Source: Desulfosarcinaceae bacterium
GTDB taxonomy: Bacteria > Desulfobacterota > Desulfobacteria > Desulfobacterales > Desulfosarcinaceae
DNA length: 64,000 nucleotides
Assembly: GCA_030066015.1 (NCBI GenBank)
Contig: JASJCL010000039.1
Span: 1 to 64,000, forward strand
Direction of reading: 5' to 3'
Shown here: piece after piece, positions 24,494-48,947 of the stretch
Layout: every line of letters begins with the position of its first letter
Numbering within the stretch: position 1 is the first letter of the stretch
Notes under the pieces: model-generated
Databases searched by the model: none
Seen by the model: the letters and a program-made list of their open reading frames with translations, nothing else
What the model was told of the DNA's origin: nothing
Made by a program: the position numbers and the translations under genes

Positions 24494-24572
24494 GGTGCGG
24501 CGGCGCAAGGCCACGGCGAGCGTCAGTATCCGTAGGCGATCGTCCGCGTCCATTGGCGATCGTCAGCATTCA

Positions 24573-26714: not shown

Positions 26715-26931
26715 GGCGCCCTCCTCCCGCTTCGATTGTCACGGCCGCCCCTGCACAGCAGCGCACGCATCGATCTGCAAATTCTCCAGCCCACTGGCCT
26801 TTACCACAACAGCGGCGGCGCGTGCAAAAGCCGGGGCGCATCACCTGCCTTTTTCCTTGCCAAATCCTATATTTGCTGTAGCTTGTGGATGTCTCCATGT
26901 GTCCCATAGTCCTTGCAGACGGGAGCCAGTG

Positions 26932-29935: not shown

Positions 29936-30020
29936 CGGCCCAAACATGGCTAGAATCCTAAGCAAGATCGTGAACTGACGTCTGCCCCAATTGCGCGATT
30001 CAACTCAGGGAGTTTGGCAG

Positions 30021-30485: not shown

Positions 30486-30523
30486 GGGGCATCACGTGGA
30501 TCAAGATTCAAGGACTAAGACGC

Positions 30524-30962: not shown

Positions 30963-31352
30963 TCAAGGTTCCCGTAGACCGATCAGGCCGCGTTTGCCCA
31001 GCATCCGAAGGAAGGTGGTGACCGACAGCTCCGCTTCACGCTGCGGCAGTTTGTGGAACTCGCCGAAGCGGGCGACGATATCACCCACGCTGCGCTCACC
31101 GTCGATCCATCCCCACACCTGGGTCCCCAGGGTATCCAGCTGGATCTTGCGCTTTTGATCTGAAAGCGCGTCGCGACCGAATCGTCGCAGCAGACGATCC
31201 AGCCAGGGACGCATCACGATGGGATAGATCAGCACCAGCTCTCCGCTCTCCAGGGTCTCCGCCGCGACGCCGGCGTGTTTCATCGGGATGCAGGCCAGGG
31301 CTGCTACCCGCTTTTCAGGATCTGAAGCGCTTGGATCAACAATAGGTTTCAT
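30963..31352 (-). CDS. PqqD-like (RiPP recognition element) protein
   Basis: A 129-residue protein whose second half fits the PqqD fold: IQLDTLGTQVWGWIDGERSV, then VGDIVARFGEFHKLPQREAE and LSVTTFLRMLGKRGLIGL. PqqD domains bind leader peptides of ribosomal peptides or act as maturation chaperones. The first 60 residues look like an extra domain with hydrophobic LVLIYPIVMRPWLDRLLRRF. The ATG at 31352 overlaps the previous gene by 17 bases. No radical SAM enzyme or obvious precursor gene is near, so its partner may be the unknown protein upstream. Confidence 0.75.
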   Translation of the reverse strand: MKPIVDPSASDPEKRVAALACIPMKHAGVAAETLESGELVLIYPIVMRPWLDRLLRRFGRDALSDQKRKIQLDTLGTQVWGWIDGERSVGDIVARFGEFHKLPQREAELSVTTFLRMLGKRGLIGLREP

Positions 31353-32217
31353 AGGTCTCAGCGAGTCGCTCGAAAAGAGGGCCAAGGCCCCTCCCCCGCC
31401 CACTCACCTCAATCCCCAAGAGGCTGTTGTGGGGCGGTGTATGCCGAACCCGCAGGTATCGTTGAAATCGAAAGCGTTGCCAGCGGATGGGCAGCGGGCC
31501 TCCCGCTGACCAGATCCCATCGACCACCTGCTCGCCTCCCCGCTCCGTGACGGTCAGCCCCGCCGCCGGAACGCTGAACTGGTTCTGGATAAAGGATAGC
31601 AGCGGGGTCTGATCGAGAATGGCGGCGGCCGGGGCCCAGCGGTGCAGCCCGATGCGAATCCGCGCTTTGCGCCACAGGAGCCGATAGCGACCCGTTTCGA
31701 ATCGGAAACGGTGCAGATTGGCCCCGGCGGGCAGTTGGGCCCGGACGCCGAAGAGCGCGAGCGGTGTCTCCGCTCCCGAGGGGTGATCGTTAAAGGAGGC
31801 CAATAGCCGCGGGATGGATTCAGGATGTTGGGTCAGTGGCGGGTGGATCTGAAGCAGACTTAAACGACGACACTGGGGACAATAGATCAGCAGTCCGCAG
31901 CCATCGGCTTCCGAGCGCCGCCAAATGAATCCGGTTACGCGATAGGCGGAGAGGCTGGCTGTCCAAGTTTGGGGAGCCTGCCAGGGGGTCGGCGCTGGCA
32001 GACCTTTTCGTCTGGCGCGCTTACCAATGCGCCGTAGGACCCGGGCCTCGTCATACGCGCCCCGGTGAGGGGCCCAGTGAATCTCCAAGGTGGCCAGCGC
32101 GTCATCGCTCCATTGAATCTGGTCCGGCGCAATGCGGGCGACGTTCCATGAGGCCGGATGTCGCAAGAAAATCCCGTTCCAGGCGGTTTCCGCCCAGGTC
32201 GCATCAGTAGGGCACAA
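31336..32217 (-). CDS. Conserved-looking protein of unknown function, partner of the PqqD-like gene
   Basis: A 293-residue soluble protein. It begins at TTG 32217, inside the last codons of the preceding gene, with GGAAG just upstream. The N-terminal part (ETAWNGIFLRHPASWNVARI) is followed by a Trp-rich beta-type segment and a Cys pair (GLLIYCPQCRRLSLLQIH), possibly metal-binding. A later part contains paired basic strands (LLWRKARIRIGLHRW, WQRFRFQRYLRV). No known family was recognised. Overlaps on both sides (14 bases with the secreted protein gene, 17 with the PqqD gene) show a tight functional unit. Confidence 0.7.
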   Translation of the reverse strand: MCPTDATWAETAWNGIFLRHPASWNVARIAPDQIQWSDDALATLEIHWAPHRGAYDEARVLRRIGKRARRKGLPAPTPWQAPQTWTASLSAYRVTGFIWRRSEADGCGLLIYCPQCRRLSLLQIHPPLTQHPESIPRLLASFNDHPSGAETPLALFGVRAQLPAGANLHRFRFETGRYRLLWRKARIRIGLHRWAPAAAILDQTPLLSFIQNQFSVPAAGLTVTERGGEQVVDGIWSAGGPLPIRWQRFRFQRYLRVRHTPPHNSLLGIEVSGRGRGLGPLFERLAETYETYC

Positions 32218-32869
32218 AGCGCTTCCAGTCGTCTGCCTGATACCCTTTGCGGCCTGCGCCCTTGCCGCCGCCGTCTACGCCAGCCGCCACGGCATCGGGC
32301 TGTTTGGCCTCGAAACAGCGCCGCTCCTTGTCGATTTGGGAGATGAGGGACAATTTGATGGCGTTGCCCATCTTCTGTTCAACGTCCTTGGTATTGTGCT
32401 GCATGGTCAAAGAGATCCGGTTGCCTGCCGCATCCTCAAAGGACCACTTCCAGGCCACAAGCACGTGAAAGGGGTCGCCTTTGTATTCGTCCGGCTCACC
32501 GTAGCGCTGCCGCAAACGCTTCATCATTTCGTTGAAAAAGCGCTTGCTTCCGTCGGTGTATTTAAGCTTAATGCGCAAGATCTTACCGGGATCAGCACAG
32601 GTGCCGAAGCCGATCAAGCCGCTCTTGAACCCTGGCTGCGCGCGGATCTCTGCCTCCTGAATATACTCCATGTAGCGTACGTGCAGGCAGGTATCCATGT
32701 CCACCAGCTCTTCGCAGGTTTCGATCTGCTCCCCCAGTTGGAAGCCCCCCAAGTGGCGGGGTGCCTCAACCGCACCGGCCTCCACGGCCAGCACTGTGAG
32801 CAGGATCAGCGCCAGTGTCGCGCCGCTGCCAAAACCCATGTTCTCTTTTCGCGTAACAACCCTCTTCAT
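32204..32869 (-). CDS. Exported protein of unknown function
   Basis: A 221-residue protein with an N-terminal signal sequence (GATLALILLTVLAVEAGAVEA). The mature part has four Cys (TCEELVDMDTCLH, GFGTCADPGK, RRCFEAKQPD), likely disulfides. A central segment (GSKRFFNEMMKRLRQRYGEP, WKWSFEDAAGNRISLTMQHN) resembles small periplasmic proteins of unknown role. The ATG at 32869 has AAGGA 12 bases upstream. First gene of the trio ending with the PqqD-like gene. Confidence 0.7.
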   Translation of the reverse strand: MKRVVTRKENMGFGSGATLALILLTVLAVEAGAVEAPRHLGGFQLGEQIETCEELVDMDTCLHVRYMEYIQEAEIRAQPGFKSGLIGFGTCADPGKILRIKLKYTDGSKRFFNEMMKRLRQRYGEPDEYKGDPFHVLVAWKWSFEDAAGNRISLTMQHNTKDVEQKMGNAIKLSLISQIDKERRCFEAKQPDAVAAGVDGGGKGAGRKGYQADDWKRFVPY

Positions 32870-33119
32870 AAGATTTAGATCCTTCCATCCCCGTTGGCGA
32901 TCTGACCCGCCGACCATGTCCACCGGTCACACGGAATGCGCGGCGAATGGGGAGCAGCCAGTGGCGGTGGTCCAGGTCCGGTCGTATGCGCCGTAACGCC
33001 CCCCAGCGCAGGGCCGACCGCATCGGATACGGGTTTCCGCGATGGACCGCGTCGTTCGACGCGGGGACCGCATCCGTTAGGCAACTCAACTCGAGGGCTC
33101 CCCTTTGCGGGAACACTAC
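32870..33119. other. Intergenic region with hairpin
   Basis: About 250 bases with no gene. A perfect GC-rich stem CCGCGTCG / CGACGCGG (33047-33064) lies about 55 bases after the OPT-like gene end and may stop that long minus-strand transcript; no U-run is present. Confidence 0.35.
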
Positions 33120-35081
33120 CTAATATGCGAGTCTTCCCAGGGATTTCAAGATGAGGGCGAACCCCATGGCGAACATGCCGGTGAGTCCCATCCCACATGA
33201 GAAACCCGCCAACAGCACTGGGGCGTATTGGCGCCAGCGGGCACCATACCGTTTGAGAAAGAAAAAACGTCCCAGGAAGGCGCCCAACACCTCCAGCAGC
33301 ATGCCGTGGGGCGTGCTCTGCCCCAATCCGCGGACCACACCGTACACCAGCAGAATGGGCAGGCCAAAAAGGGAGAGGACGCCGTAGGTGACCACGCCGA
33401 AACCGAGGCCGCAGACGATGTAAATCCAATTCAGCGCCTGATAGAAAAGGGAGTTGCCCTCAAGCGTAGAGGTCTGCATGAGCAGTGTGTTGAGCGCCTG
33501 CAAATGCCAGAGCTCCTGGGCGTACGGATACTGACTGGAGGGAATGGGGGCCAGGCGCCAGATAAACTGGGAAAAGAGCAGACTGGCAATCATCACCACT
33601 GGAAAGACAACGATCTCCGATTTGATAATTCCGCGGATACTGGTGCCGGTGAGTTCGATCTGACGGAAGTTGACGGTCGCCTCGCCGTAATTGTGGATGG
33701 GGATGGGAGCGTACCAGATCTCGATGCCCTGGTAGCCAAAATATTTGGCACCGGCGATGAAGCTGGCCTCACGCACCAATGGGAGACTGACGAACTGGCC
33801 GGCGATGCCCTCCATGCGGGCAGTGATGTAGGAGATGACCGGCGTGTAGATGAAACCGTATCCCAGAAAAAAGATCCAAGGAAAGTTGGGCACCAGCCAG
33901 ACACAGAGGCCCACGTACGCCAAGGTGGAGAACACGTAGATGCCGATGGAGATCCAAAAGTTGAAATCCCCCCGGCCCGGTGGCGGGTTGAACAGGTCCC
34001 GCAACGAGCCGCGCACACCGGGACCTGACGGACCGAAGGAGCGCAGCACCTGCCAGATGCCGATGGCCCCGATGGCCAATCCCAGGCCGATGCCAAAGCT
34101 CATGTAGAAATCGAAATTGTTGGCGAAAACCGTGTCGACGGTTTCCATTCCCGGATGCCAGCGGGTCAGAATGCCCGCCTTGTGGAGAAAGGGGTTGGCC
34201 ACGACGGTGATCACCAATCCCACGAAGCCGCCGATCACGGCCCAGAATGGCAGCACCATACCGATGAAGAGCAGCCCCAAATCCAGCTGAATACCGGTGG
34301 CCACGGCGGGCAGCAGCTTCTCCGTGTGGCGGGTCAACTCCACCCAGGGGATGGGGATCAGACGAATCGGTTCCAGAAAGAGCAGTCCCGACACCGTGGG
34401 CAGCAGCACATAGATGGCGCCGAACGCCAGACCGATCACCCCGCCGACGGAGAAAACACGCCACTTCCAGCTTTTTTGCTTCTCCTCGGTGGATTCCGCC
34501 AGGGCGATGGTGCCGAGGGCCCCCACCGGTGCCATGGGAAAGGGCAGCTTTTCCACGTCGGAGGTGATTCGGTAGAGCGCGTAGCCCAGTCCAAACTGGT
34601 CGATGCGCTGGATGATCTGAGCACCGACGAGGAGCAGAATTGGAATCAGCCAGTCGCGGTGCAGAAAGGTGCGCTCAATGAGGGAGAGTGAATCGGGTTG
34701 GGGGGCCACCCAAGTGGGGATGAATTCGGTCAGTCCCAGCATACGGGCGGCATCGGACTGCACCAGGTACTGGTTCCAGAGAAGGCCCTGAAAGGGTGAG
34801 GCCAGGGCTGCGCCGGCCATGTAATAGAGCAGAAAGATTTCCTGTTGCTTGAGGTCCTGGTAGGCCCGCTTGGCCACTTCGGCGAAGAGGATGATGGTCA
34901 CCCAGCGGGCGGCTGGGCCGATGCCCGTGCCGATGACCAGCTGGAGATACATGCTGCCGGGCATCATCAGAAATCCGATGAAGACCGCGCCCAGGATGGT
35001 TTTCCAGTCGAAGCCCTCCTCGAATCGGTCCGGGGGCTTGAGCAGGTCGCGGTACTCTTGGAGTTCTTTATCTTCGTACAT
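33120..35081 (-). CDS. OPT-like polytopic membrane transporter
   Basis: A 653-residue integral membrane protein with roughly 14 hydrophobic helices (for example TILGAVFIGFLMMPGSMYLQ, VGGVIGLAFGAIYVLLPTVS, FIGMVLPFWAVIGGFVGLVI). Layout and length resemble oligopeptide (OPT) transporters and the related large DUF678x membrane proteins. A soluble stretch around SDVEKLPFPMAPVGALGTIA resembles the Pro-rich loop of OPT proteins. It is 143 bases after the second OPT-like gene and downstream of the FtsX/M28 fusion. The family assignment is by pattern; the substrate is unknown. Confidence 0.7.
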   Translation of the reverse strand: MYEDKELQEYRDLLKPPDRFEEGFDWKTILGAVFIGFLMMPGSMYLQLVIGTGIGPAARWVTIILFAEVAKRAYQDLKQQEIFLLYYMAGAALASPFQGLLWNQYLVQSDAARMLGLTEFIPTWVAPQPDSLSLIERTFLHRDWLIPILLLVGAQIIQRIDQFGLGYALYRITSDVEKLPFPMAPVGALGTIALAESTEEKQKSWKWRVFSVGGVIGLAFGAIYVLLPTVSGLLFLEPIRLIPIPWVELTRHTEKLLPAVATGIQLDLGLLFIGMVLPFWAVIGGFVGLVITVVANPFLHKAGILTRWHPGMETVDTVFANNFDFYMSFGIGLGLAIGAIGIWQVLRSFGPSGPGVRGSLRDLFNPPPGRGDFNFWISIGIYVFSTLAYVGLCVWLVPNFPWIFFLGYGFIYTPVISYITARMEGIAGQFVSLPLVREASFIAGAKYFGYQGIEIWYAPIPIHNYGEATVNFRQIELTGTSIRGIIKSEIVVFPVVMIASLLFSQFIWRLAPIPSSQYPYAQELWHLQALNTLLMQTSTLEGNSLFYQALNWIYIVCGLGFGVVTYGVLSLFGLPILLVYGVVRGLGQSTPHGMLLEVLGAFLGRFFFLKRYGARWRQYAPVLLAGFSCGMGLTGMFAMGFALILKSLGRLAY

Positions 35082-35224
35082 GGGGTTCGTTACGTCGTCG
35101 ATAGGTCGCGTCGTTTATTCAGAAGCGCGGTCGGCGCCTGATAGGTGGTCCTCTCAGGAGATGATCGGTTAGACGGCCAATCCGTCCCCAATCTGCCAAG
35201 CATAGCCGCATTTCGCTCTGGCAC

Positions 35225-37258
35225 TTAGGTGGGCAGCACCTGATATGAGGCGTGACTGAACAGTCCCACCAGCGCCCAGCTGCCGCCCATGAGAAAATCG
35301 CCGATGATCAGTCCGATGAAGAAGAAGCGAATCTTTTTGAACAAGACAACCCCCCCGTAGCGCATGCAGACGGCGTTGCAGAGCCACCCGACAAAAAAGC
35401 TGAACCAGAGAATCCGCATCGCCGAGCTGTAGGCCATCAAATACCCAATGGGATGCAGCGGCCACCAGTAGAACCGGTGGTAGCAGAGCACCAGGCCCAC
35501 CATCACCACGGCCCCTGACAAAACGAAAACGGTCACCCAGGTCCCCGGGCGCACCGGTGTGGTCAGAAGCGTGTTCAGGTTGTCGTAGACGTTCAAGGTG
35601 GTGCGCGAGGCCCAGTCCAGCTGGAGTTCGCGCACACCATAGCGGTAGCAAAGGGCCAGCATCGCCACAAAGGAGACCACCACGCTGAAAAACAGCAGCA
35701 CCAATAGCGCCCAGCGAATCAGGTTGCGGCCGCTCATCTCCCCACTGAGCTTGCGGAGATGGAGTAGCGAGGGCATCAGGGACTCACGCAGGTCCACGAA
35801 AAGGACTTTCTGGGCCACCCCTGCCAGGACGAGGCTGGCCTGGGAAAAAAACTGGGGTCCGAGGAGGGCCAGGATGCCGTCCATGGGTGCCGCTGTGAGG
35901 GTGAAGTAGGCGACGCCGCCCTGGCAGATCACCCGCATGGCCACCAGCGTGAAAATGAAGAACGCCCCCAGCACCACGAGGGCGACGCCCAAGGGCATGC
36001 CGAAGAGATAGAACCACAGCAGCAGCAGCAGCGTCCCGACCACCACCCCCCAGAAGGCGAAGCGCATGCTGAACCAATCATTGGCCGGGCGCATGGCGGG
36101 TTTCAGGAAGAAGGCTTGCCGGAGCACATCCGCGAAATGAAATCGGGCCAGCCAGATCAGAAAGAAGAGAAAGGCCAGGAATGCGCCCACCATCTGCATC
36201 TCCTCGGGCCTTGCGAGGGTGGGGCCGAAGGTGACCCCCAGGGCGGCGGCCGGAATCTGGTAGCCCAGAAGCCCCAGCAGTCCGTAAAGCAGGCCTCCCG
36301 CCAGGAAAAAGAACCAGAAGGAGAAAGAGATCTGTTTGGCGGCCAGAAACGCGAATCCGATGAAGGCTGGGTAGATAAAAATTTTCAGTTTGATAAAGCC
36401 GGAGAAGAGCCCGACTTTGGAAAAATAGCTGCCCGCCAGGATCAGCGTGGGCAGCTGCGGCACCGAAGGATAGTAAAAACTGAGCCCATTGAGCAGATGC
36501 AGGACCACGGGAATGGCGATGCCGCAGAGCAGAAAGCGGTTGCCCCAGAAGGCGGCGCTTTGCCCTTCGTCCACGGCCGCCTCCATGAGCTGGGGCACCC
36601 GCAGCAGGGGAAAGTTCATCCGTTCGTTGACCAGCGCCTGGGGGGCCAACAGGCTGACGATGCAGATCATCACCCAATAGCAGAGCAGGATAAACCCACC
36701 CCAGGCCACGAGAGGGCCAAGCCAGGCGCTCCAGGGGATTTGCGTCAGAACCGACCACCAGGAGAGCCGCCGCCCGCCTTCGAGCCCATTGTAGAGTTCC
36801 AGAATGGCGCCCTTGTCGGCAGGGAAGAGTCCTGCCGGCAGCAGCGGCTGAAGGGTGTCGGCCCACCGGTTCTCCACCGTGGCGAAGTGAAAGGGGGCCG
36901 TCAGATTGATAAAGAAGGTGCGCACCAGCCCGGTGTAGGCCACTCCCGAGACCAGCACCATAAGCCCCCAGGCGAGCAGTAGCTCGCTGCCGCTGAGCAG
37001 GGGGGGCTTCTCCTTGCGGAAATGGTTGGCCAAACTGGTTGCCAGGGTCAGCCAGATGAGGATGTAGAAGGGCGCCAGTGGAAAGTGTCCGCCGCCCAGG
37101 GGGGTCGCCTGACGATAGGTGTTGTTGAAGGGGGTCAAGGCACAGATCAGCAGAGCGATCAGCGACCCAATCAATACGGCCCGCAGGCGGACGGGTGGAA
37201 CGCGGGGGGTGATCTGAGGGTCGCTCGGTTGGGTTCGGCTGCTCGGCCCTGCGGTCAT
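35225..37258 (-). CDS. Second OPT-like polytopic membrane protein (DUF6785/DUF6784 type)
   Basis: A 677-residue membrane protein with about 14-16 helices (AVLIGSLIALLICALTPFNN, PFYILIWLTLATSLANHF, LLLLWFYLFGMPLGVALVVL, FVLSGAVVMVGLVLCYHRFY). A cytosolic Asn-Glu-Arg segment (PQALVNERMNFPLLRVPQLM) and a GGVAYFTLTAAPMDGI loop stand out. The ATG at 37258 begins 5 bases after the fusion protein's stop, so translation is coupled. It is distinct in sequence from the other OPT-like protein but similar in architecture; they may form a heteromeric unit. Confidence 0.7.
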   Translation of the reverse strand: MTAGPSSRTQPSDPQITPRVPPVRLRAVLIGSLIALLICALTPFNNTYRQATPLGGGHFPLAPFYILIWLTLATSLANHFRKEKPPLLSGSELLLAWGLMVLVSGVAYTGLVRTFFINLTAPFHFATVENRWADTLQPLLPAGLFPADKGAILELYNGLEGGRRLSWWSVLTQIPWSAWLGPLVAWGGFILLCYWVMICIVSLLAPQALVNERMNFPLLRVPQLMEAAVDEGQSAAFWGNRFLLCGIAIPVVLHLLNGLSFYYPSVPQLPTLILAGSYFSKVGLFSGFIKLKIFIYPAFIGFAFLAAKQISFSFWFFFLAGGLLYGLLGLLGYQIPAAALGVTFGPTLARPEEMQMVGAFLAFLFFLIWLARFHFADVLRQAFFLKPAMRPANDWFSMRFAFWGVVVGTLLLLLWFYLFGMPLGVALVVLGAFFIFTLVAMRVICQGGVAYFTLTAAPMDGILALLGPQFFSQASLVLAGVAQKVLFVDLRESLMPSLLHLRKLSGEMSGRNLIRWALLVLLFFSVVVSFVAMLALCYRYGVRELQLDWASRTTLNVYDNLNTLLTTPVRPGTWVTVFVLSGAVVMVGLVLCYHRFYWWPLHPIGYLMAYSSAMRILWFSFFVGWLCNAVCMRYGGVVLFKKIRFFFIGLIIGDFLMGGSWALVGLFSHASYQVLPT

Positions 37259-37263
37259 AAACC

Positions 37264-40200
37264 TTATCCCTCTGATGGAAGGGGCGTCGTGAGCGCATTT
37301 TCGTAGTGGAATTTGTGGGCGGCCGACAAAGACCGCCACACCAGCATCTGTTTCCGCAACTGATGGATGAACATTTTATTGGTTCGCCGCCAGGCGTTGG
37401 CTTCGCCGGCGCCGCGGGTGATCCGCATCCGGATCTCGATGAAGCCCGGCTCGTCGGCAGAGGCGCAAAAGAGCAGCTCCACTTGTTGAACAACGCCCAG
37501 GTCAAAGGGTGCCAGCCAGACCAGTGACTCCATCTGCAGGCAGGGGGTTTTCGGCGATGGATGGATCTGGTCCGCGGGCGCATCCGTAACGCCCAATTTC
37601 AGATCCCCGGTTGAGAACAGCCCGTGGGAAATATCCAGATGGCCGTTGAAATAGTCGTAGATATAACCGGCGGCGCTCTTCTCCTCGCCCGCCTTCAGGA
37701 GAAAGGGCAGGGTGATTTCGATGTGGTTGCCATGGACTTTGGGAAGCTGCCAGGAGCGCTTTACGTCAGGGATCGCGATGGCGGCGGCCACCCGCGAGGG
37801 ATAGATCACCGAGACCAGCACCACCACGATCACCAGCACCATGGCGGCCACGCCGGCCATGGAGGAGTAGTTGACCGTGATCCCCGCCCAGAGCGCGCTG
37901 CCCGCCAGAAACTTGGCCGCCGTCTGCGCCACGATGTAGCCCATCACCACGCTGAGGACGGCAAACGCCAGCGCCTCGGCGATGAAGAGAAAGGCCACAT
38001 GGGAGGGTGCCAGTCCCACGGAGGTATAGATCCCGATCTCGCGCTTGCGCTCGTAAACGCTGCTGATCATGGTGTTGAGCACGATGAGAATGGAGATCAC
38101 CACTGGAATCAGAATGTTGGGCACTCCGCTGTAACTGAGGGTGTCGCTGGCGGTGTAAACGAAACTGCCCTCTGGCTCTCCGCTAAAGAGGGTCAGGCCA
38201 AACCGGTCCGATAGCCGCTCGGCCAGTTCGGGGATGGCGCCCCCGCCGGGTTTCAGGGCGATCGCCTTGAGGTGGCCGCCTGCCGAGAGGAGGGTCTGGG
38301 CGGGCAGTATCACCACCAGCTCCGGCGGGACGTGGACATAACGGCTCTGGAAAGCGCGCACGTCGTCACCCGATTCGAGAGCTTCCATCTCCACTTCGGT
38401 GAGGGCCTGGGCGGTCTCGCTGGGAAAGGTCACCGGCGTGAGCGGCTCGCCGTCCAGATCGCTGCGACCTCCCAGCGCCGCGGGATCGAAGATGCCCACC
38501 ACCGTGTAGGGGACGCCCCAGAGATTCACCTGTTTGCGGCCCGTGTCCGATGGCGTGATGCCGAGCCCCTGGGCCAAGTTTTGCGGCAAGAGGACAGCGT
38601 CCCGCTCACCGGGATCAAACCAGCGGCCGGCCATCAAAATGGCGTCCATTCCGGTCACCGCCGGTTCCTCCGGCGCCAATCCCACCACCCCTTGCGCTTC
38701 GAGGGTTCGGTTGCCGATGCTGAGGAGCACCCGGCGCACGCGGGTGCGGTCATCGGCCTCCAGCCAAATCCGCGGAGCAATGCGGCCGCCATCGGCAAAT
38801 TTGTTGGCCACCATCGCCAACGCCTCTGGTGGCAGATCCTGCCAGTTGATGTTCTTGAGGAGGATCCCCTCGTAGGCCGGTTGCGCATTGTATTGCAGGC
38901 GGGTGTGGCGTCTCAGGGAATTCACCGAGGTAAAGCTCATGATGGTGAAGGTGAGAATCACCAGTGTGATGCAGGTGAGGGCAGTACGCAGGCGCCGGCG
39001 GCGCAGGTTGCTGACCCCCAAAAAGAACGCGGCCGCAAAGGCCTTCCACATGCTGACCTCCTCGGCCCGCTTCTGCTGACTCTGTCGCTGGAGCAGCATC
39101 ATCTCCTCTTCGAAGCGCAGAAATATGATCAGGCTGACCATCAGGGAGAGACCGATGATGAAGAAGGCCAGAATCACCACCGTGGGGCTGTAGGCCAGTT
39201 GGAAGGCCGGGTGGACGTTGTAGATAACGGTGATGAGCAGCAGCAGAATCGCCATAAAGGCCGAAATCCGCTTGTAGATGCTGCGATAGGAGAAGAGCAG
39301 GCGCTCGGCACAGAAGGCGAAGGGTACGAAGAGGGCGATGTAGAACAGCACCCCCAGGAGGACATCCTTCTGGGTGCGCTCCACGTGTTCGTAGACCCGG
39401 CTGGCCAGCGCCCACGAGCGTCGCGCAGACTCAAAGAAGCGGTCGTAAGCTTGGGCGGCGAGGGCGGTTTCGGCCTCGCTTAAGGCGCTCAGGCCAGTCT
39501 GCTGCAGCCCCGCGATGCGATCGTCGTGGATGCCGTGGCGCTCCAGGTTGGCGATGCGGGGGGCCAGGAGGGCCCACATATCCTTGGCCACGCGGTACTC
39601 CGTTGGCGCGATGCGGGGCCACTGATCGAGCCGGTAGCCCGTCCCCTGGCTGTTGGACCCGTCGGCGTTGGTGAGGATGAGCTTGTGACGCAGGACACTG
39701 TCCGAGAGGGTCAACTTGAGCGGCGTCGTCGGCTCGAGGTAGATGCTCGAGATCACCGAATCCCGGGTATCGATGCGACTGTACCAGAAGCGCACCGGGG
39801 GTGCCTCCTGCCGCCCGTCGTACAGGTTGAGCTTTGTCATGTAGCGAAAGCTGCGCGGTTCGAGCAGATTGAAGATGGTGGTTCCCCGGCAGGCGAACAT
39901 GACCAGGTCGGTCTCCATGCGCGGATGCTGCATCTTGACCCGATAGTTGGCCTTGGTGGTTTGGTTTTTGTCGATGGCCCAGACCACCTTTCCGGTCCGA
40001 GGGTCGAACTTGTACCCCTCGATAATCACCTTGTGCAGGACGTGCTTTTTGTCCACCACGCCTTTGATCTGAAAGCGCCCTTGGGTGTCCACCAGGCTGA
40101 TGTAGCGTCCAGGACCCTGATAGGAGAGCAGGACACTATCCGGTGCCGGCTGATCTGGGAAAAGTTCTCCGTGCCGCAGAAAGTTGGCGCGGCCGGTCAC

Positions 40201-42090
40201 CGTGGCAAAGCCGTAACGGGGCTGTTCGTCGGTCTGCAGTTCATCCGCGGCCGCCAGATGATGGATGAGCCCTTGAATAAGCCGGGCCTGCTGACGGGCG
40301 AAGGACCAGTCGATGCGGTCGATGGTGTCGAAGGGCGTGCCCCAGTGCGGGCGGGCGTCGTGGGTGGTGGCCAGGCTGATCCCCACGATACCGGCCACGG
40401 AGCTCACCTCGCCCCCGAGGAAGGGATGGTCCACGAAGAAGCTTTGCCAGCTGTGTTTACGACTGGGGCGCAGCGTATCCTTGAAAAGCGGCGGCAGGGC
40501 CTGATCGGTCTGGACCGCGGCAGCGCCCGCGCGAAGCACCTCGTCGATGCGGCTGTAGGCGTTGACGCGGTTGATAATGGGTTTGAGGGGATAGAGCCAG
40601 CCCTGGTTGAAGGCCCCCACCCCGCTGCCGTGGCTGGAAAGGTGCAGGCTGACCGCGGCGGCCAGTTCATGGCGTTTTACCAAGGCGCGAAAACGGGTGG
40701 CCATCTTGAGTTCGTCGAGCTGCCGCTGGGCATCGGCCAGCGCGGCCCGGTGGCGCGCTTCGGCCAGCGGCAGGAGATCGTTCACATGGTGCTGCTGGGC
40801 TGGGTCGAGGTTGGCCAGCTCGGTTTGCCAATCCAGGCGTCTGAGCAGCAAGCGCTCCTCTGCCAGCGCGGCAATGTCGGCTTGGCTGACACTGCCAGGG
40901 GTCTGCATGCGCAGCTGCATCAGTTCCCGCGAGAGCCGATCCACGGCGTTCTTGATCTCCGCAGCAACGGCGGTCTTCAGCGCGACCGCCTGGGGTGCCG
41001 TCAGGGCGGTGGATGCAAGGCCGGTGGTCTCTTCGAGCAATTTGAGGGTTGCCTTCTGGGCGGAGATCCGCTTCTTCAGTTCCCGATCGCGCTGGCGTAG
41101 CTCGCGGCTGCGTTCGGCAACACTCCAGATCATCTCGCGCATCCCCCCCAGGGTGTGGGCATGGGCGTCGGTCGCCACCAGGAGCACGCTGCGCCTGGGG
41201 GGATTGGCTTTTAGATGACGGGCCAGCGTGAGGAGTGTGGCCGCGCCCAGGGCCTCCTCCGCTCCCGGGGAGCGGCCCGCCACAAGGGCGGTGCTATCGT
41301 AGAAGGCCTCCACCAGCAGCAGCGTCTCGCTGAGATCGGGATCGCTCCCGGGAACCAGCGCATAGATGTTGCGTGCCTCGGTGGCGGTCCAGTGCATGTC
41401 GGAGCGGAGGCGGACCGCCGTGGCCAGATCCCCCTGGGATGATTCGAAGGCGCCGAAGCGCTCACGGACGGTCTCGATGGGGAGCCAAAAGCGGGGAAAC
41501 TGCAGGGGTGTCAGCTCATATTTGTCTTCGTAGAGCGACTTTGGGGTCCCTGCTGCACCGCCGCGGTCGATATAGATAAGGGCCTTGGCACCCAGTGAAG
41601 CGGCGTTCAGCCAGTTGCGGCCGGATTCCAGCTCCATGAGAACGATGCTGCCGGCGACCGTTCGGCCGTTGAAGTCCGCCGGCTCGCCGTGCCCAACGTA
41701 GATCAGGTTCCCGCTCAGGCCTTCGGCAGGCAGGGTATCGGGGGCGACGGCATTGGCGGCGAAGGGCGACAAGGCCAGGAGATCCTGGTCCGACCCAAAC
41801 ACCAGGCGGCATTGGCTAAAACGCCGGACCGGCAGAGAGAAGGCCATTTCGCCCACCTGGGACAGCTCCAGGGCTTCGAAGGCGGAGCGGATGTAGGCCC
41901 CTGCGGCTCGGCCGCCGGGACTCCCGCTGCTGCGGTCCGCATGGGTACTCAAGGCTGTCATGTGCGCCGTGAGATCCTCTGAAAGGCTGGCAGCCGTCAC
42001 CGCGGGCAGCAGCAACACCCCGCAGACCAGGAGCAGCCGTCGCCACATGCCAACCGCTATTGGGGTCCAAATGCCTGACCAGTGTGCCAT
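37264..42090 (-). CDS. Giant fusion: degenerate M28-type peptidase ectodomain plus MacB/FtsX-type permease
   Basis: A 1608-residue protein. A signal/anchor helix (LLLVCGVLLLPAVTAAS) leads to an M28-like exopeptidase domain with a PA-type insert (LSGNLIYVGHGEPADFNGRT). Expected zinc ligands are altered: the HxDS position reads EAFYDS, the GADDNASG loop PGAEEALGAA, and GEExG is ATDAHAHTLGG, so catalysis is unlikely. A coiled coil, a further HSWQSFFVDHPFLGGEVSS segment and a beta-rich domain follow. Helices near residues 960-1060 precede a complete FtsX permease with a MacB-like periplasmic domain (ending SVYERKREIGIYTSVGLAPS) and a soluble C-terminal tail. The ATG at 42090 lies 7 bases after the ATPase stop. 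Probably a mechanotransmission or lipoprotein/peptide-handling ABC system. Confidence 0.85.
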   Translation of the reverse strand: MAHWSGIWTPIAVGMWRRLLLVCGVLLLPAVTAASLSEDLTAHMTALSTHADRSSGSPGGRAAGAYIRSAFEALELSQVGEMAFSLPVRRFSQCRLVFGSDQDLLALSPFAANAVAPDTLPAEGLSGNLIYVGHGEPADFNGRTVAGSIVLMELESGRNWLNAASLGAKALIYIDRGGAAGTPKSLYEDKYELTPLQFPRFWLPIETVRERFGAFESSQGDLATAVRLRSDMHWTATEARNIYALVPGSDPDLSETLLLVEAFYDSTALVAGRSPGAEEALGAATLLTLARHLKANPPRRSVLLVATDAHAHTLGGMREMIWSVAERSRELRQRDRELKKRISAQKATLKLLEETTGLASTALTAPQAVALKTAVAAEIKNAVDRLSRELMQLRMQTPGSVSQADIAALAEERLLLRRLDWQTELANLDPAQQHHVNDLLPLAEARHRAALADAQRQLDELKMATRFRALVKRHELAAAVSLHLSSHGSGVGAFNQGWLYPLKPIINRVNAYSRIDEVLRAGAAAVQTDQALPPLFKDTLRPSRKHSWQSFFVDHPFLGGEVSSVAGIVGISLATTHDARPHWGTPFDTIDRIDWSFARQQARLIQGLIHHLAAADELQTDEQPRYGFATVTGRANFLRHGELFPDQPAPDSVLLSYQGPGRYISLVDTQGRFQIKGVVDKKHVLHKVIIEGYKFDPRTGKVVWAIDKNQTTKANYRVKMQHPRMETDLVMFACRGTTIFNLLEPRSFRYMTKLNLYDGRQEAPPVRFWYSRIDTRDSVISSIYLEPTTPLKLTLSDSVLRHKLILTNADGSNSQGTGYRLDQWPRIAPTEYRVAKDMWALLAPRIANLERHGIHDDRIAGLQQTGLSALSEAETALAAQAYDRFFESARRSWALASRVYEHVERTQKDVLLGVLFYIALFVPFAFCAERLLFSYRSIYKRISAFMAILLLLITVIYNVHPAFQLAYSPTVVILAFFIIGLSLMVSLIIFLRFEEEMMLLQRQSQQKRAEEVSMWKAFAAAFFLGVSNLRRRRLRTALTCITLVILTFTIMSFTSVNSLRRHTRLQYNAQPAYEGILLKNINWQDLPPEALAMVANKFADGGRIAPRIWLEADDRTRVRRVLLSIGNRTLEAQGVVGLAPEEPAVTGMDAILMAGRWFDPGERDAVLLPQNLAQGLGITPSDTGRKQVNLWGVPYTVVGIFDPAALGGRSDLDGEPLTPVTFPSETAQALTEVEMEALESGDDVRAFQSRYVHVPPELVVILPAQTLLSAGGHLKAIALKPGGGAIPELAERLSDRFGLTLFSGEPEGSFVYTASDTLSYSGVPNILIPVVISILIVLNTMISSVYERKREIGIYTSVGLAPSHVAFLFIAEALAFAVLSVVMGYIVAQTAAKFLAGSALWAGITVNYSSMAGVAAMVLVIVVVLVSVIYPSRVAAAIAIPDVKRSWQLPKVHGNHIEITLPFLLKAGEEKSAAGYIYDYFNGHLDISHGLFSTGDLKLGVTDAPADQIHPSPKTPCLQMESLVWLAPFDLGVVQQVELLFCASADEPGFIEIRMRITRGAGEANAWRRTNKMFIHQLRKQMLVWRSLSAAHKFHYENALTTPLPSEG

Positions 42091-42097
42091 CGCCGTC

Positions 42098-42835
42098 CTA
42101 TCCTCGCGTGCCGATCTCGCCGATGGAGATGGAGAGCTCGTCGCGGTTTTCGATCTTGTCCACCCGTCCGTCACGAATCCACACCACCCGGTCGGAGACA
42201 TTGAGCATTTTGAAATCGTGGGTGGCGGAGATTACCGTCACCTGACGGTCGCTGCTCAGCTCCTTTAGCAGCGCAATAATCTCCTCGCCGGTGGTCAGAT
42301 CGAGATTGCCGGTGGGTTCGTCCGCCAGGATGATGGCCGGGTCGTTTGCCAGGGCCCGGGCCACGGCCACCCGCTGCTGCTGGCCGCCGGAGAGCTCGAA
42401 CGGTTTGTGCTGGAAGCGGTCGGCCAGACCCACCGTCTCCAGGAGGGCCATACCGCGATCGACGGCCTCGTCGCCGCCGATCCCGGCGAAGGTCATGGGC
42501 AGGGTCACGTTCTCTAATGCCGTCATGACCTGAATGATATTGAAGGTCTGAAAAATGTAGCCGATTTTGCGGCAGCGCAGCCAGGCCAACTCGTAAGCGT
42601 CCAGCTGGGAGACATCCACCTCGTCGATATAGACTTTGCCGGCGGTGGGTTTGTCCAGGCCGCCGATCATGTTGAAGAGCGTACTCTTGCCCGAGCCGGA
42701 GGGACCCATGATGGAGATATATTCGCCGGCGCTGATCTCCAGATCGATCCCTTTGAGGGCATCGACCGTCAGCTTGCCCAGTTGAAAGGATTTGGTGACC
42801 CCGGCGACCCGCACGATGTGGCTGTCTGTCGTCAT
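42098..42835 (-). CDS. ABC transporter ATPase, LolD/MacB type
   Basis: A 245-residue ATPase with Walker [10 protein letters not shown] (about 43-51), Q-loop [10 protein letters not shown], signature [15 protein letters not shown], Walker [13 protein letters not shown] and H-loop ISATHD. All catalytic residues are present. It lies directly upstream of the giant FtsX fusion and downstream of a small FtsX permease, so it probably powers one or both. Confidence 0.95.
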
Positions 42836-43001
42836 ATTCGAGACCTTATCAGTGACGTAACGCTCGTCTGCTGGGAAAGGATGCGGCTTCCAGACGCGAT
42901 CGGCGCACCTGTGAGCCCGTCAGCCGGCGTGCCGCTAGTGGATCGGGGCTGTCTTAGCGATGGACAGACGGGTGCCCTGGCCCGCCGGCAATCGCCATCA
43001 C

Positions 43002-43718
43002 TCACTGCTCCACCCGCATCGCTTCAACGGGCTGCATGCGGGCCGCCACCAGGGCCGGGTAGAAGACACCGATGAGGCTGAGGATGCAGCCCGCGACCAC
43101 GGCGAAGCCCAATGAGGCCAGGACCCCGCCCCAACTGACCTCGGCAATTGCCGCGACACCGTACCGCAGCCAGGCGCTCAGCAAAGCGGCGCCACCGCCG
43201 AGTAAGGCGCCCGCCAAGGCGCCGATGATGCCCTGCAATCCCGCCTCCAGAAAGAACAGCCGCAGGATGAAGCGGTCCAACGCCCCCAGGCACTTCATGG
43301 TGCCGATCTCGCGGAATCGCTCGGTCACCGCCATGAGTTGGGCATTGATGATGCCCACGACACACACCAGCAGGCTGAGAATGACGATCCATCGCTGCTT
43401 GGGACTGCTGTCAACCCGCAGATCGCCGGGTGACAGGTCGTAGCCGGCGTCCACCAGCAGTCGGAACCACTCGCCGTGACCAGTGGCCAGAAGGCCGTTG
43501 GCCACATCGTTGCCCACGTTGACAAAGCTCAAAAAGGCGATGGCCAATACCAAGCTGAGCGTGGTCACCAGGGAGCGAAAAAAACGCACCTGGATGCTCT
43601 TGAGCGCGATCTCCACCGATTTGCGAAACGGCAGGACGACCAGTCGGTGCACCGAGGCGGGGCCTCTAGCCCTTTGGGCGACCGGCGCGTTTGTGGGTGC
43701 CGTTGGCGGTGCAGGCAT
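43002..43718 (-). CDS. Short FtsX-type permease
   Basis: A 238-residue permease. An Ala/Pro-rich N terminus, helix 1 (RSLVTTLSLVLAIAFLSFVN), a short periplasmic loop of about 50 residues instead of the usual 200 or more, then three helices (WIVILSLLVCVVGIINAQLM, and the last two around GIIGALAGALLGGGAALL and GFAVVAGCILSLIGVFYPAL). The MTERFREIGTMKCLGALDR motif is typical of FtsX proteins. It precedes the ATPase gene by 166 bases. It may pair with the fusion permease as the second half of the transporter. Confidence 0.85.
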   Translation of the reverse strand: MPAPPTAPTNAPVAQRARGPASVHRLVVLPFRKSVEIALKSIQVRFFRSLVTTLSLVLAIAFLSFVNVGNDVANGLLATGHGEWFRLLVDAGYDLSPGDLRVDSSPKQRWIVILSLLVCVVGIINAQLMAVTERFREIGTMKCLGALDRFILRLFFLEAGLQGIIGALAGALLGGGAALLSAWLRYGVAAIAEVSWGGVLASLGFAVVAGCILSLIGVFYPALVAARMQPVEAMRVEQ

Positions 43719-43735: not shown

Positions 43736-44554
43736 TCAGGTTGGATCGGTTTCCGCCAGGTTGGGGAATTCCAGGAGCGTCTTAAGTTCTACTATCCTGA
43801 AATGCTGTTGCATCTTCATATGTTGCAGCAGAATGTCGAGAAAGTCAAAAGCGGCCGGGTTCATCCGCTGGTGGTGCAGCATGATGCCACACCAACCGGC
43901 GGTGAGCGCCGTTTCCAGCTCCGCCAACAAGCGGGCCCAATCCGCATCCGGCCGCGGCGCCTTGCGGGTATGCAGGTCCACATTCACCGTGAAATCGGGC
44001 AAGCCCGCCGGCGCCGCAGGCGTCGCTCCCGTGCTGCGGGACACCGCTCGAAAGCCCATTTCCCGGAGCTCTTGCAAGGTCGCTTGCGAACAGCGGTTCC
44101 AGGGCGGCGTGAAAACGGGTAGGAAGGCATCCGCCAGCAAGCTTTCCAGACGGCGGCGACCCCGCTCCAGGTCGGCGCGCAGCGAAGCAGGCGCGCGTGC
44201 CGAACCAAATTCCTGCTTTTTGCCGTGCGTTTCATGATTTTGGTGACGCCAGCCGTGCTGGTGCCAGCCCCAGAGATGGGCTGCGGCGCCGCCGTGTGCC
44301 AAGAGCCCCTCCCAACGGGGGCGGGTCAGCCAGGTGGGCACAAGGGCTGGTGCCAACGGCACCTGGTGGTGGGCGAATAGAGCCAGCATCCGATAGAATT
44401 GCCGCCCAGGAACGCCGATATCGTCGGCCCGAAACCAGACGGTGGCGGGCCGCTGCATGCGGCGGGCGGTGTTGGCGCGGGCCAGCGTCGCCGCAAGGCG
44501 CTGCTCGATATCGCGTTGGGGCTTCCGGTATATGGCCGCTGGTGTCCGATTCAC
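43736..44554 (-). CDS. Polysaccharide deacetylase-like protein (NodB/CE4 fold)
   Basis: A 272-residue protein with carbohydrate esterase 4 hallmarks: VWFRADDIGVP (catalytic and metal Asp pair), LWGWHQHGWRHQNHE (metal His) and the substrate-groove FTPPWNRCSQATLQEL, plus a late IMLHHQRM. It could deacetylate an N-acetyl sugar of the glycan made by this cluster. It starts at GTG 44554, overlapping the upstream glycosyltransferase stop by 4 bases. No signal peptide is evident, so it acts in the cytosol or on a precursor. Confidence 0.85.
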   Translation of the reverse strand: MNRTPAAIYRKPQRDIEQRLAATLARANTARRMQRPATVWFRADDIGVPGRQFYRMLALFAHHQVPLAPALVPTWLTRPRWEGLLAHGGAAAHLWGWHQHGWRHQNHETHGKKQEFGSARAPASLRADLERGRRRLESLLADAFLPVFTPPWNRCSQATLQELREMGFRAVSRSTGATPAAPAGLPDFTVNVDLHTRKAPRPDADWARLLAELETALTAGWCGIMLHHQRMNPAAFDFLDILLQHMKMQQHFRIVELKTLLEFPNLAETDPT

Positions 44555-45750
44555 GGTGTTGTCCTTTTTGGCGCAGTGGCCAGCCAGTCGGTGAGCCAGC
44601 GCGCGCTGGTCTCGGCGCCATCCAGGCGCACGGTGCTGGAAGGACCCGGCGGCGATGTGAGCAGTGTGGCCATGCGGGCCGCCAAGGCATGGGGCGTCAA
44701 ATTCGCATCTTCCAGCAGGTGGAGCGGCGTACGGCGCTGAAGTCGCTCTACCCGCAAGCGCTGTTCGCGGTTCTGGCCAAACGGCCAGATGAGGGCCCTT
44801 GGGACCCGGGCGGCGAGGAGGTTCATGGTGGTGTTGTAGCCCCCCATGCTCACCGATAGGTCGGCCGCCGAGAGGAGCTGCAGAAAGCGATCACTGAAGC
44901 GCTCGATGGTGAGGCGCTCACCGACCGCCGCGGCCTCCTTCCGCAGGGCCGCAGGATCACCATAGGGACCGGTGAGCAGATGCATGTGGATGCGGAGTTC
45001 CTCCTTCAGCACCAGCCGCTGGAAAGCGCCCACCGCCGCTGTCATGAGGGGGCCGCCAACCTTGCCGCCCCCGGCGCTGACCACCACCAGGCGGTCCGCA
45101 TCGCCCAGGCCCATGCGCGCGCGTGCGACGGCGCCGGCCTCCGGACTGGGGCGGGCGGTAACGTAGCCAGTGTAGATCACCGGAATCTTGATTTGGTCAA
45201 CCGCATTGAAGGTCTCGTCCAGCGGGATCACCGCGGGGTCGCCATGCACCAGGAGGGCGTCGAATGCTGCCAGCTGTTTGAGCACCCGCCGCTCGTACGC
45301 GGCGGGGTCCGACTTCTCCACGAGAATATCCCGCAGGCTGCACACCACCCTGCAGGGCGGCAGCGCCCCGGTTGCCAGGGCATTGAGCACCGGTTCCAGC
45401 TCGAAGCGGAATGCCTTGCGGCCGAACGGATAGAGTTCGATGAGGAGCAGGTCGGGCGCCTCGCGCCGCATCAGTGCCATCAGCTGCCGCCGCCGATCGC
45501 GCTGGATGGCATCCACGTCACCCGTGCCATCGCGATCGGCACCGGCTGCATACACCCGCTTGAAGTCGGCGTCCATCATGAGGGCCGGCAGTTCGAAGCG
45601 CCTCAGCCCCTGCGGCAGGGCCACGCTGACGCCCTCCCCTCCGGTGACGAGAAGGACCTCATGCTCGACGAGCAGGGCGCGGCACAACTCCAACACCCGG
45701 AAAAAATGGCCGATGCCCAGAACATGCTGGCAGTAGAAAGCGATTTTCAC
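44551..45750 (-). CDS. MurG-like (GT28-fold) glycosyltransferase
   Basis: A 399-residue GT-B enzyme. The N-terminal domain has FYCQHVLGIGHFFRVLELCR; the C domain has VVSAGGGKVGGPLM and the nucleotide-binding SMGGYNTTMNLLAARVPRAL, matching MurG C-terminal motifs. It starts at GTG 45750 with GGAGGA upstream. It is related in layout to the enzyme at 48948-50150. The sugar donor is unknown. Confidence 0.88.
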   Translation of the reverse strand: MKIAFYCQHVLGIGHFFRVLELCRALLVEHEVLLVTGGEGVSVALPQGLRRFELPALMMDADFKRVYAAGADRDGTGDVDAIQRDRRRQLMALMRREAPDLLLIELYPFGRKAFRFELEPVLNALATGALPPCRVVCSLRDILVEKSDPAAYERRVLKQLAAFDALLVHGDPAVIPLDETFNAVDQIKIPVIYTGYVTARPSPEAGAVARARMGLGDADRLVVVSAGGGKVGGPLMTAAVGAFQRLVLKEELRIHMHLLTGPYGDPAALRKEAAAVGERLTIERFSDRFLQLLSAADLSVSMGGYNTTMNLLAARVPRALIWPFGQNREQRLRVERLQRRTPLHLLEDANLTPHALAARMATLLTSPPGPSSTVRLDGAETSARWLTDWLATAPKRTTP

Positions 45751-45877: not shown

Positions 45878-46510
45878 TCAATGCGACCCGGTCAGGTCGA
45901 GGGCGTTCACCGGTCCGGGCAGCAGCCGCCGACCATCTCCAAAGATCCAGTGCAGAAAATTCGGCTGCAGGAGCCGTTTTTCCTGCGGCATGAAACGGCG
46001 GCGGTAAAGACGGTAGGTCAGCGCCTTGAGCACCCCGCCGTGAACCACCACCAGAAGGGTTTCCCCCGGGCACCTGCGGGACAGCTCCACCAGGGCGGCC
46101 TGGCTACGGCGCCACACCCGTCTGCGACTCTCTCCGTCAGGCGGGCGAAAGGTCCACCCCTCGGTGAGCGGTCCCGGGGTCATCCGGATCAAACGCGCTT
46201 CGATCCAGGCGAGCGCTCGTCCCTCCCATGCCCCCCAGCTCTGCTCCATCAACCGCGCATCGACCATCAAGGGGGCGCCCAAACAGGTATTGACCAAGGC
46301 GCCCGTTTCCCTGGCCCGCTTTAGCGGGCTGGTGACCACCCGGTCCCAGGGGAGGTGGCCAAGGTGCGCTCCCCAGGCCAGCGCGTCCCGCCGGCCGCGG
46401 TCGCACAGGGGCAGGTCACTGTGGCCCTGGATCCGTTTGGCCAGGTTCCACTCGGTGGCGGCATGGCGCAGGAGGCCAAAGCGGGTCAGACGACTAGGGC
46501 GATGCGGCAT
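45878..46510 (-). CDS. Histidine phosphatase (phosphoglycerate-mutase-like)
   Basis: A 210-residue member of the branch-1 histidine phosphatases. The catalytic His lies in FGLLRHAATEWN (RHA rather than the usual RHG), followed by RIQGHSDLPL; the second catalytic His is in LLVVVHGGVLKAL. It could dephosphorylate a sugar or nucleotide-sugar intermediate. The ATG at 46510 overlaps the end of the GT4 gene by 17 bases, placing it in the glycan operon. Confidence 0.88.
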   Translation of the reverse strand: MPHRPSRLTRFGLLRHAATEWNLAKRIQGHSDLPLCDRGRRDALAWGAHLGHLPWDRVVTSPLKRARETGALVNTCLGAPLMVDARLMEQSWGAWEGRALAWIEARLIRMTPGPLTEGWTFRPPDGESRRRVWRRSQAALVELSRRCPGETLLVVVHGGVLKALTYRLYRRRFMPQEKRLLQPNFLHWIFGDGRRLLPGPVNALDLTGSH

Positions 46511-47675: not shown

Positions 47676-47676
47676 C

Positions 47677-48945: not shown

Positions 48946-48947
48946 GG

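Follow-up and report, generated by a model that had tools for sequence, protein, structure and literature searches.

A conserved Desulfobacterota gene cluster predicted to pair an ABC motor bearing a pseudopeptidase ectodomain with OPT-like membrane proteins

The gene cluster and its conservation

What task could bring together, in one run of genes, a giant protein that joins a peptidase fold with a replaced metal site to an FtsX permease, the ATPase of an ABC transporter and two membrane proteins resembling OPT transporters? Such a run lies on the minus strand of the window (the whole 64,000-nucleotide stretch of Desulfosarcinaceae DNA analysed here), with all five genes where a preliminary description had placed them: a short FtsX permease of 238 aa (FtsX2; 43002-43718; Pfam FtsX, PF02687, E 1.4e-15), a LolD/MacB-type ABC ATPase of 245 aa (42098-42835; PF00005, E 1.8e-33), the 1608-aa M28X, with a pseudo-M28 ectodomain and a full FtsX permease (37264-42090), OPTB, a 677-aa DUF6785+DUF6784 membrane protein (35225-37258; PF20581, 6.9e-160; PF20580, 2.9e-36), and OPTA, a 653-aa OPT-like membrane protein outside any Pfam family (33120-35081). 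The successive intergenic gaps are 166, 7, 5 and 143 bases, the M28X-OPTB gap being exactly the 5 bases first reported; OPTB is taken to start at the ATG at 37258 (677 aa), and the listed open reading frame runs from the GTG at 37339 (704 aa).

The conserved neighbourhood extends beyond these five genes. Downstream, on the same strand of the window, are the accessory proteins H239 (32204-32923; no significant family; N-terminal hydrophobic segment 34-52) and H293 (31336-32217; no Pfam family) and a PqqD-like protein (30963-31403; PF05402, 5.4e-7, 30.3 bits against a cut-off of 23.4); H239 follows OPTA on its strand in 24/44 loci, and H293 and the PqqD-like gene are found downstream in 29/44 and 30/44. 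Upstream, also on the minus strand, are a polysaccharide-deacetylase-like/DUF2334-like gene (43736-44554; PF10096, 1.7e-5, and PF01522, 3.4e-4, both scoring slightly below their cut-offs; 29/45 loci), the MurG-like glycosyltransferase GT28a (44551-45750; PF04101, 5.6e-8), a histidine phosphatase (45878-46510; PF00300, 1.3e-42; 32/45), the glycosyltransferases GT4a (46494-47750; PF00534, 4e-32; 19/45) and GT4b (47677-48969; PF00534, 1.8e-32; 24/45), and a second MurG-like glycosyltransferase, GT28b (48948-50150; PF04101, 1.9e-13; 21/45), which is 27% identical to GT28a. Both GT28 relatives found in the window's genome are those of the cluster, and GT28a had no match in the PDB by sequence. GT28a overlaps FtsX2 by 4 bases in one locus (L222) and by 20 in another (L224), and the PqqD-like gene lies directly upstream of FtsX2 in L223. 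The glycosyltransferase linkage is not universal, since two loci (L124, L125) show no glycosyltransferase of the window's families within ~10 kb on either side of the core. Regulator genes of the SpoIIE, RsbW-like and STAS types are also seen nearby.

The five-gene order recurs across Desulfobacterota in tens of genomes and thus exceeds chance, which answers the call in the preliminary description for a survey of other genomes. Our neighbourhood survey covered 100 loci, of which 95 contain M28X; in some cases the same genome was probably counted twice (L095 and L214), so the locus fractions are not fractions of independent genomes. The order is conserved in 67/71 loci, with FtsX2 and/or LolD missing in L077, L099, L120 and L231. 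Both OPT-like genes lie downstream of M28X in 59/64 of the loci whose sequence continues for 4.5 kb or more beyond it (the OPT genes are missing in L060, L099, L120 and L231, and OPTA in L228), so that their linkage to the fusion holds in relatives. Measured from the first possible ORF starts, the median gaps are 5 bases for LolD-M28X and -4 for M28X-OPTB. A separate search of 97 genomes gave 28 matches, reduced to 25 when three hits to the permease only (G029, G059, G075; 41-43 bits) were dropped; the 20 regions compared for order (L031-L050) come from 20 of those 25 genomes. A mobile element was considered and rejected: the OPTA tree is mostly grouped by family name, and plasmids yielded no M28X at E<=1e-8, no OPTA at E<=1e-3 and no OPTB at E<=1e-2. 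No M28X relatives were found among viral contigs.

Components of the predicted machine

M28X comprises an M28 domain with a helical insert, a beta region, three extra TMs and a full FtsX permease, and its Pfam matches to Peptidase_M28 (6.1e-8), MacB_PCD (5.4e-7) and FtsX (3e-11) bear out the fusion as originally described. Residues 31-997 were modelled at pLDDT 90, and structure comparison assigns the model to the M28 fold (Z ~25), close both to M28 aminopeptidases (2ek8, YwaD/BSAP, 1amp; for 1amp, Z 25.5 and rmsd 2.7 over 260 residues) and to the M28-related ectodomain of transferrin receptor 1 (Z 24.8, rmsd 7.0 over 400 residues). The M28X profile likewise matches 2ek8 (E 5.7e-15), and a single ectodomain sequence searched against the PDB had no match. 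Almost all of 48 relatives have replaced the catalytic Glu as well as four of five zinc ligands: in Vibrio aminopeptidase numbering, the equivalents of His97, Glu151, Glu152 and His256 are each found in 0/48, Asp at the Asp179 position in 1/48 and that of Asp117 in 45/48 (columns set by profile mapping, the Asp179 position by motif only and the last His in a region that scores -0.9 and 1.4 bits but where the TPxD motif is clear). Intact zinc ligands occur in 0/48 sequences, and the early suspicion of a replaced site is upheld. In contrast to the aminopeptidases, M28X thus carries replaced ligands and catalytic Glu, a helical insert and a membrane fusion. Transferrin receptor 1 has an M28-related fold that serves binding and is not known to have peptidase activity, although it is eukaryotic and lacks an ABC motor.

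The ATPase carries Walker A, LSGGQ and ILADEP motifs and has LolD as its best NCBIfam match (225.9 bits, below the model cut-off of 307.75), in keeping with the LolD ATPase first noted beside the fusion, while FtsX2 scores 41.8 bits against the LolCE model (cut-off 362.45). By hydropathy only, the TM1-TM2 loop has a median of 270 aa in the M28X permease and of 42 aa in FtsX2 (72/78 homologues with at least four TMs); a MacB-like periplasmic domain is accordingly found in M28X and not in both permease halves.

OPTB matches DUF6785 and DUF6784 above the curated cut-off (533 and 124 bits), and its model (pLDDT 90) has as its sole PDB match at E<=0.001 the OPT/YSL transporter HvYS1, in two entries (7wst and 7wsr; E 4.7e-7 and 1.7e-6; TM-score 0.61-0.69; rmsd 6.6-6.9; 11% identity). 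An OPT/YSL-like fold is well supported by this prediction, although OPTB has no match to PF03169 (OPT) at E<=1. For OPTA the support is moderate and comes, weakly, from profiles only: hhalign against 12 OPT proteins gave 61% (E 7.9e-5) for OPTA and 51% (E 1.6e-4) for OPTB, values that grew with alignment size from 35% and 15% with 8 sequences, and 0.2% for a SulP negative control against OPTA. The window's OPTA has no match to PF03169, which is matched by 2/37 OPTA members (best 0.0035), and the unrelated EMP70 was matched similarly (2/37; 0.0069). OPTA and OPTB do not match each other by hhalign, and a relationship between the two is therefore supported only through the resemblance of each to OPT; the profiles of both gave only chance-level matches to the PDB by sequence. 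The description of two OPT-like proteins therefore stands well for OPTB, by predicted fold, and moderately for OPTA, by profile. In 36 relatives OPTA is 70-88% identical to the window protein, which suggests tight constraint by a common task. PF03169 itself is present in 11/297 genomes of the phylum and absent from the window's own; in one of the 11 (G167), the weak match falls within its OPTA.

Co-inheritance, cargo and rival readings

M28X, OPTA, OPTB and GT28a occur in the same 20/297 Desulfobacterota genomes, which are related to each other, and partial sets of M28X, OPTA and OPTB in 0/297 at the thresholds used: within the phylum, the machine is kept or lost together with GT28a. GT28a has 24/297 matches at E<=1e-15. 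We counted the 20 that score 195 bits or more, a threshold placed once the next score, 101 bits, was known; the remaining four (G110, G151, G210, G331), given as 61-85 bits, were excluded. One machine-gene count first read 21/297 and became 20 on removal of G097 (19.5 bits, under the cut-off). GT28a is distant from the machine in two genomes (G364, G199) and still co-occurs with it. H293 is found in 10/297 genomes, all within the 20 carrying the machine.

We tentatively propose, as quite possible, a dedicated Desulfobacterota envelope machine in which an ABC motor, a non-cutting ectodomain and an OPT pair handle the product of the linked glycosyltransferases. Its physical assembly, cargo and direction of transport we infer as follows. 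FtsX2, the LolD-like ATPase and M28X would assemble into a Type VII ABC complex that is asymmetric, M28X contributing nearly the whole periplasmic part. Through ATP binding and hydrolysis the FtsX helices would shift, as would the M28-fold ectodomain in a swinging motion; this domain, lacking the family's zinc-based cutting, may act as a binding or docking module comparable to the transferrin receptor. OPTA and OPTB would work with the ectodomain at the inner membrane, translocating or extracting the glycosyltransferase product, the cargo most likely being a small glycoconjugate headed to the cell surface. We favour a glycan over a peptide because GT28a matches the machine's presence in 20/297 genomes; this co-inheritance with a sugar-transferring enzyme points to an unstudied handling of a sugar-containing envelope molecule in a phylum rich in sulfate reducers.

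The preliminary description had instead put forward envelope peptide or lipoprotein handling, in which the M28-fold domain binds, the ABC motor presents and the OPT-fold proteins import peptides. The OPT/YSL fold predicted for OPTB, the M28 fold, LolD as the closest ATPase model and the PqqD-like gene in 30/44 loci are consistent with this, as is OPT-type transport being described as uptake in PMC9691689. However, a MurG-like glycosyltransferase shares the machine's pattern of presence, many loci have further glycosyltransferases upstream, and OPTB lacks an OPT match in Pfam. We consider peptide or lipoprotein cargo unlikely, and retain from that interpretation the conserved system, its non-catalytic peptidase-fold ectodomain, its ABC engine and its transporter-fold partners. 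As to RiPP traits, a PqqD-like gene is present and no modifying enzyme is seen among the annotated shared families.

A more specific form of the glycan proposal, which we judge unlikely, is that a glycoconjugate leaves the inner membrane by a new route: OPT-fold proteins would be flippases, and the dead-peptidase ectodomain of the ABC motor would pull the product out, in place of a Wzx/ABC-2 exporter. Known OPT/YSL transport, as PMC9691689 presents it for HvYS1, is proton-coupled uptake, the opposite of export, and this direction counts against our main proposal, as do the glycosyltransferase linkage not being universal and the weak OPT kinship of OPTA.

Distinctly improbable, in our estimate, is a role in sensing or cell-wall control, in which the motor would signal through the ectodomain to envelope enzymes in the manner of FtsEX and the OPT-like proteins would be scaffolds or receptors. 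Type VII ABC complexes perform mechanical work in the periplasm (PMC5985334), and of the SpoIIE, RsbW-like and STAS genes lying near the machine, STAS and RsbW occur in 16/44 loci; yet no peptidoglycan-hydrolase gene was found among the Pfam-annotated neighbours scanned, and two carrier-fold proteins would be unusual for a signalling device. Very improbable is that the ABC proteins have one function and the two OPT-like proteins another, sharing only an operon. A shared operon alone is weak evidence of joint action, and the OPT pair is on a separate contig from M28X in G073 and G382, and OPTA alone lies elsewhere in G167; but all parts are still present in those genomes, and none of the 297 has a partial M28X/OPTA/OPTB set. 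Finally, that M28X remains an enzyme with an altered or absent metal site is highly improbable: its site is not simply decaying, since Asp265, Trp583 and Asp588 are invariant (48/48) and the replacement histidines frequent (His310 in 32/48, His483 in 37/48, His487 in 38/48), and the PDB title of 2anp terms functional an Aeromonas Glu151His mutant, at the position occupied by His310, but the loss also extends to four of five zinc ligands, and the replacement histidines are not universal.

Known relatives and wider meaning

The folds are already known, and we found no description of M28X, an ABC motor and an OPT pair in combination, nor any paper on DUF6785 or DUF6784, among open-licence PMC papers. 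Like Type VII ABC systems (MacAB-TolC, LolCDE, FtsEX-EnvC), the proposed machine has the FtsX permease, a MacB-like domain and a separate LolD/MacB-type ATPase; unlike them, it has an M28-fold ectodomain and three TMs ahead of the permease, a partner permease with a stub loop, and OPT-fold partners, and the cut-offs of the LolD and LolCE models are unmet. YbbAP-TesA likewise joins a Type VII ABC transporter to a hydrolase-type periplasmic partner, although TesA is separate and active, whereas in M28X the hydrolase fold belongs to the permease chain itself and has a replaced active site, and OPT partners go unmentioned for YbbAP-TesA in the abstract of PMC12646458. In contrast to OPT/YSL transporters such as HvYS1, OPTA and OPTB always accompany the ABC part in our genome sample.

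If the proposal is true, it would add a further kind of work for Type VII ABC motors, a bacterial M28 pseudopeptidase serving as a moving ectodomain and a functional context for DUF6785/DUF6784, and the glycosyltransferase co-inheritance would lead directly towards the cargo, in a phylum that is widespread and ecologically important. PMC6848030 mentions PF03169 alone, and PMC10533852, on a sulfate reducer, counts Dde_0728, a gene of the OPT superfamily, among those whose expression changed most.

Domain make-up of the machine and its lost zinc site

We found that the five genes of the machine lie on the minus strand, bearing out the positions in the preliminary description: FtsX2 (43002-43718), a LolD-like ATPase (42098-42835), M28X (37264-42090; 1608 aa) and the OPT-like membrane proteins OPTB (35225-37258) and OPTA (33120-35081), separated by 166, 7, 5 and 143 bases. 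By Pfam, hydropathy and a structure model of residues 31-997, M28X begins with a hydrophobic segment. A PA-like and M28 domain, interrupted by a long insert of helices (about 328-472), comes next and leads through a beta-rich region to three TM segments (about 910-989); after these stand an FtsX permease that carries a MacB-like periplasmic domain and, last, a terminal domain, which topology would put on the cytoplasmic side. This conserved C-terminal domain (residues about 1445-1608; window 37264-37760) lies past the last TM segment, displays the consensus motifs VWLAPFDFGIMQ, GEANAW and RINK, and matches no Pfam family. In the second FtsX permease, FtsX2, a short loop takes the place of the MacB-like domain; by hydropathy only, its median length is 42 aa across those 72 of 78 homologues with four or more TM segments, and that of the equivalent M28X loop is 270 aa (87 proteins). 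The ATPase has intact motifs, and its nearest model is LolD, with a score below the LolD cut-off.

The AlphaFold model of M28X (pLDDT 90) matches M28 aminopeptidases, with Z 25.5 for 1amp (rmsd 2.7 over 260 residues), and also, at Z 24.8, the transferrin receptor (rmsd 7.0 over 400 residues). A profile of 48 M28X relatives was aligned to solved M28 enzymes, with the zinc-site residues (His97, Asp117, Glu151, Glu152, Asp179, His256) numbered as in the Vibrio enzyme. The first zinc His corresponds to Phe263 of M28X, the Glu-Glu pair to His310-Ala311, Asp179, placed by motif, to His483, and the last His to Gly584, in a stretch that is weakly aligned, though its TPxD motif is clear. Equivalents of His97, Glu151, Glu152 and His256 occur in 0/48 sequences, with Asp at the Glu152 position in one; Asp179 is kept in 1/48 and Asp117 in 45/48, with Glu in two, including the M28X of the window. 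As aligned, the family has lost the zinc site, with a caution: the Glu151 position is His in 32/48 sequences, and a Glu151His mutant is named functional in the title of PDB entry 2anp. Since Asp265, Trp583 and Asp588 are invariant (48/48), the site is conserved, though in an altered form.

OPTB consists of DUF6785 and DUF6784 (Pfam). At E<=0.001 its model (pLDDT 90) matches just two PDB entries, each of them a structure of the OPT/YSL transporter HvYS1, giving it a predicted OPT/YSL fold. OPTA matches no Pfam family; against 12 bacterial OPT proteins, hhalign returned 61% (E 7.9e-5, 410 columns) for OPTA and 51% (E 1.6e-4, 418 columns) for OPTB, with SulP controls at 0.2%. PF03169 matches only 2/37 OPTA proteins (best 0.0035), and the unrelated EMP70 likewise 2/37 (0.0069).

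Gene order, distribution and co-inheritance with a glycosyltransferase

All but one (L049) of 20 regions taken from relatives carry FtsX2, LolD, M28X and OPTB in this order on one strand; OPTB is split over two frames in L043, and about 2.7 kb lie between M28X and OPTB in L041. OPTA is present in 17/20, two of the other three reaching a contig edge. In a larger locus set, FtsX2 and LolD are present in 67/71 loci with at least 2.6 kb of upstream DNA, and both OPT genes in 59/64 with at least 4.5 kb downstream. Judged by their titles, the 80 of 209 relatives listed in a named-sequence scan belong for the most part to Desulfobacterales, Desulfobacteraceae, Desulfobulbaceae and similarly named groups, and some to Desulfovibrionaceae. 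Cultured bacteria among them include Desulfatibacillum alkenivorans, Desulfogranum, Desulfopila aestuarii, Desulforhopalus and Solidesulfovibrio. Such relatives would put the window itself in Desulfobacterota. An OPTA tree (49 rows) groups largely by family name, a pattern consistent with old vertical descent and losses.

M28X, OPTA, OPTB and the MurG-like glycosyltransferase GT28a occur in an identical 20 of 297 Desulfobacterota genomes, across 17 genera (thresholds: OPTB above the DUF6785 cut-off, GT28a at least 195 bits). About 10^30.8 sets of 20 are possible, a figure that is no probability, as the genomes are related; more telling is the patchy presence, with the full set in G182 and missing from G110 and G210 of the same family, and likewise in G095 and missing from G362. 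Every part is retained despite separation, with GT28a and M28X 1.2 Mb (G364) or 0.3 Mb (G199) apart on single contigs, and the OPT pair and M28X on separate contigs in G073 and G382. The downstream accessory protein H293 occurs in 10/297 genomes, all within the 20. Single stop codons inside the GT28a matches of G039 and G300 and the M28X match of G321 could reflect sequencing error, recoding or decay.

Where the DNA upstream of FtsX2 extends for at least 6 kb (45 loci), it holds GT28a (34), a histidine phosphatase (32), a deacetylase-like protein (29), GT4b (24), GT28b (21) and GT4a (19). The GT28a and FtsX2 genes overlap in L222 (4 bases) and L224 (20 bases). GT4a and GT4b each occur in 17/29 stretches, 20 of which were taken around GT28 hits, several sharing a genome. 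No glycosyltransferases of these families were recognised beside the machine in L124 and L125. No flippase or polymerase was seen among the 10 neighbour proteins annotated, which represent only part of the shared families.

Proposed mechanism

Every fold in the machine is already known, and it belongs with the Type VII ABC systems, in which ATP drives periplasmic parts rather than substrate passage across their own membrane (PMC5985334); one such protein works in YbbAP-TesA alongside a hydrolase whose substrates are hydrophobic molecules (PMC12646458). Targeted searches of open papers found no description of this combination of parts. The analysis establishes the parts themselves, the lost zinc site, the predicted fold of OPTB, the gene order and the co-inheritance; the complex, its cargo and the direction of transport are inferred. 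By analogy with these systems, we posit that the parts would form a physical complex, with the M28X ectodomain as the moving part of the motor, which, its zinc site lost, would bind and hand on cargo rather than cut it, the OPT-fold pair as the route through the membrane, and a product of the co-inherited glycosyltransferase as the cargo. Transport may run in either direction: HvYS1, the structural match of OPTB, is a proton-coupled importer (PMC9691689), which makes uptake the main rival. The boldest reading compatible with these data is a glycoconjugate flippase.

Other neighbours

Upstream of the glycosyltransferases, hexapeptide transferase-like, GSCFA and MBOAT genes (window 50160-54363, minus strand) make up an acylation-type set, found in 6, 2 and 0 of the 45 loci, respectively. 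An ABC exporter (26515-29433, plus strand; a 972-aa frame with uncertain start) has an ATPase domain whose family matches are split between residues about 500-616 and 810-967, some 200 residues apart, and lies downstream of OPTA in 23/44 loci, mostly on the opposite strand. MASE10-SpoIIE, HAMP-SpoIIE, cNMP-binding, RsbW-like and STAS genes (23033-30856) possibly constitute a partner-switching regulatory set; a SpoIIE protein directly follows OPTA in L125, as do SpoIIE-like frames in L215 and L216. HSP20 genes lie directly upstream of FtsX2 in G199 (a pair; L226 4300-5182) and G167 (L228 15817-16209).
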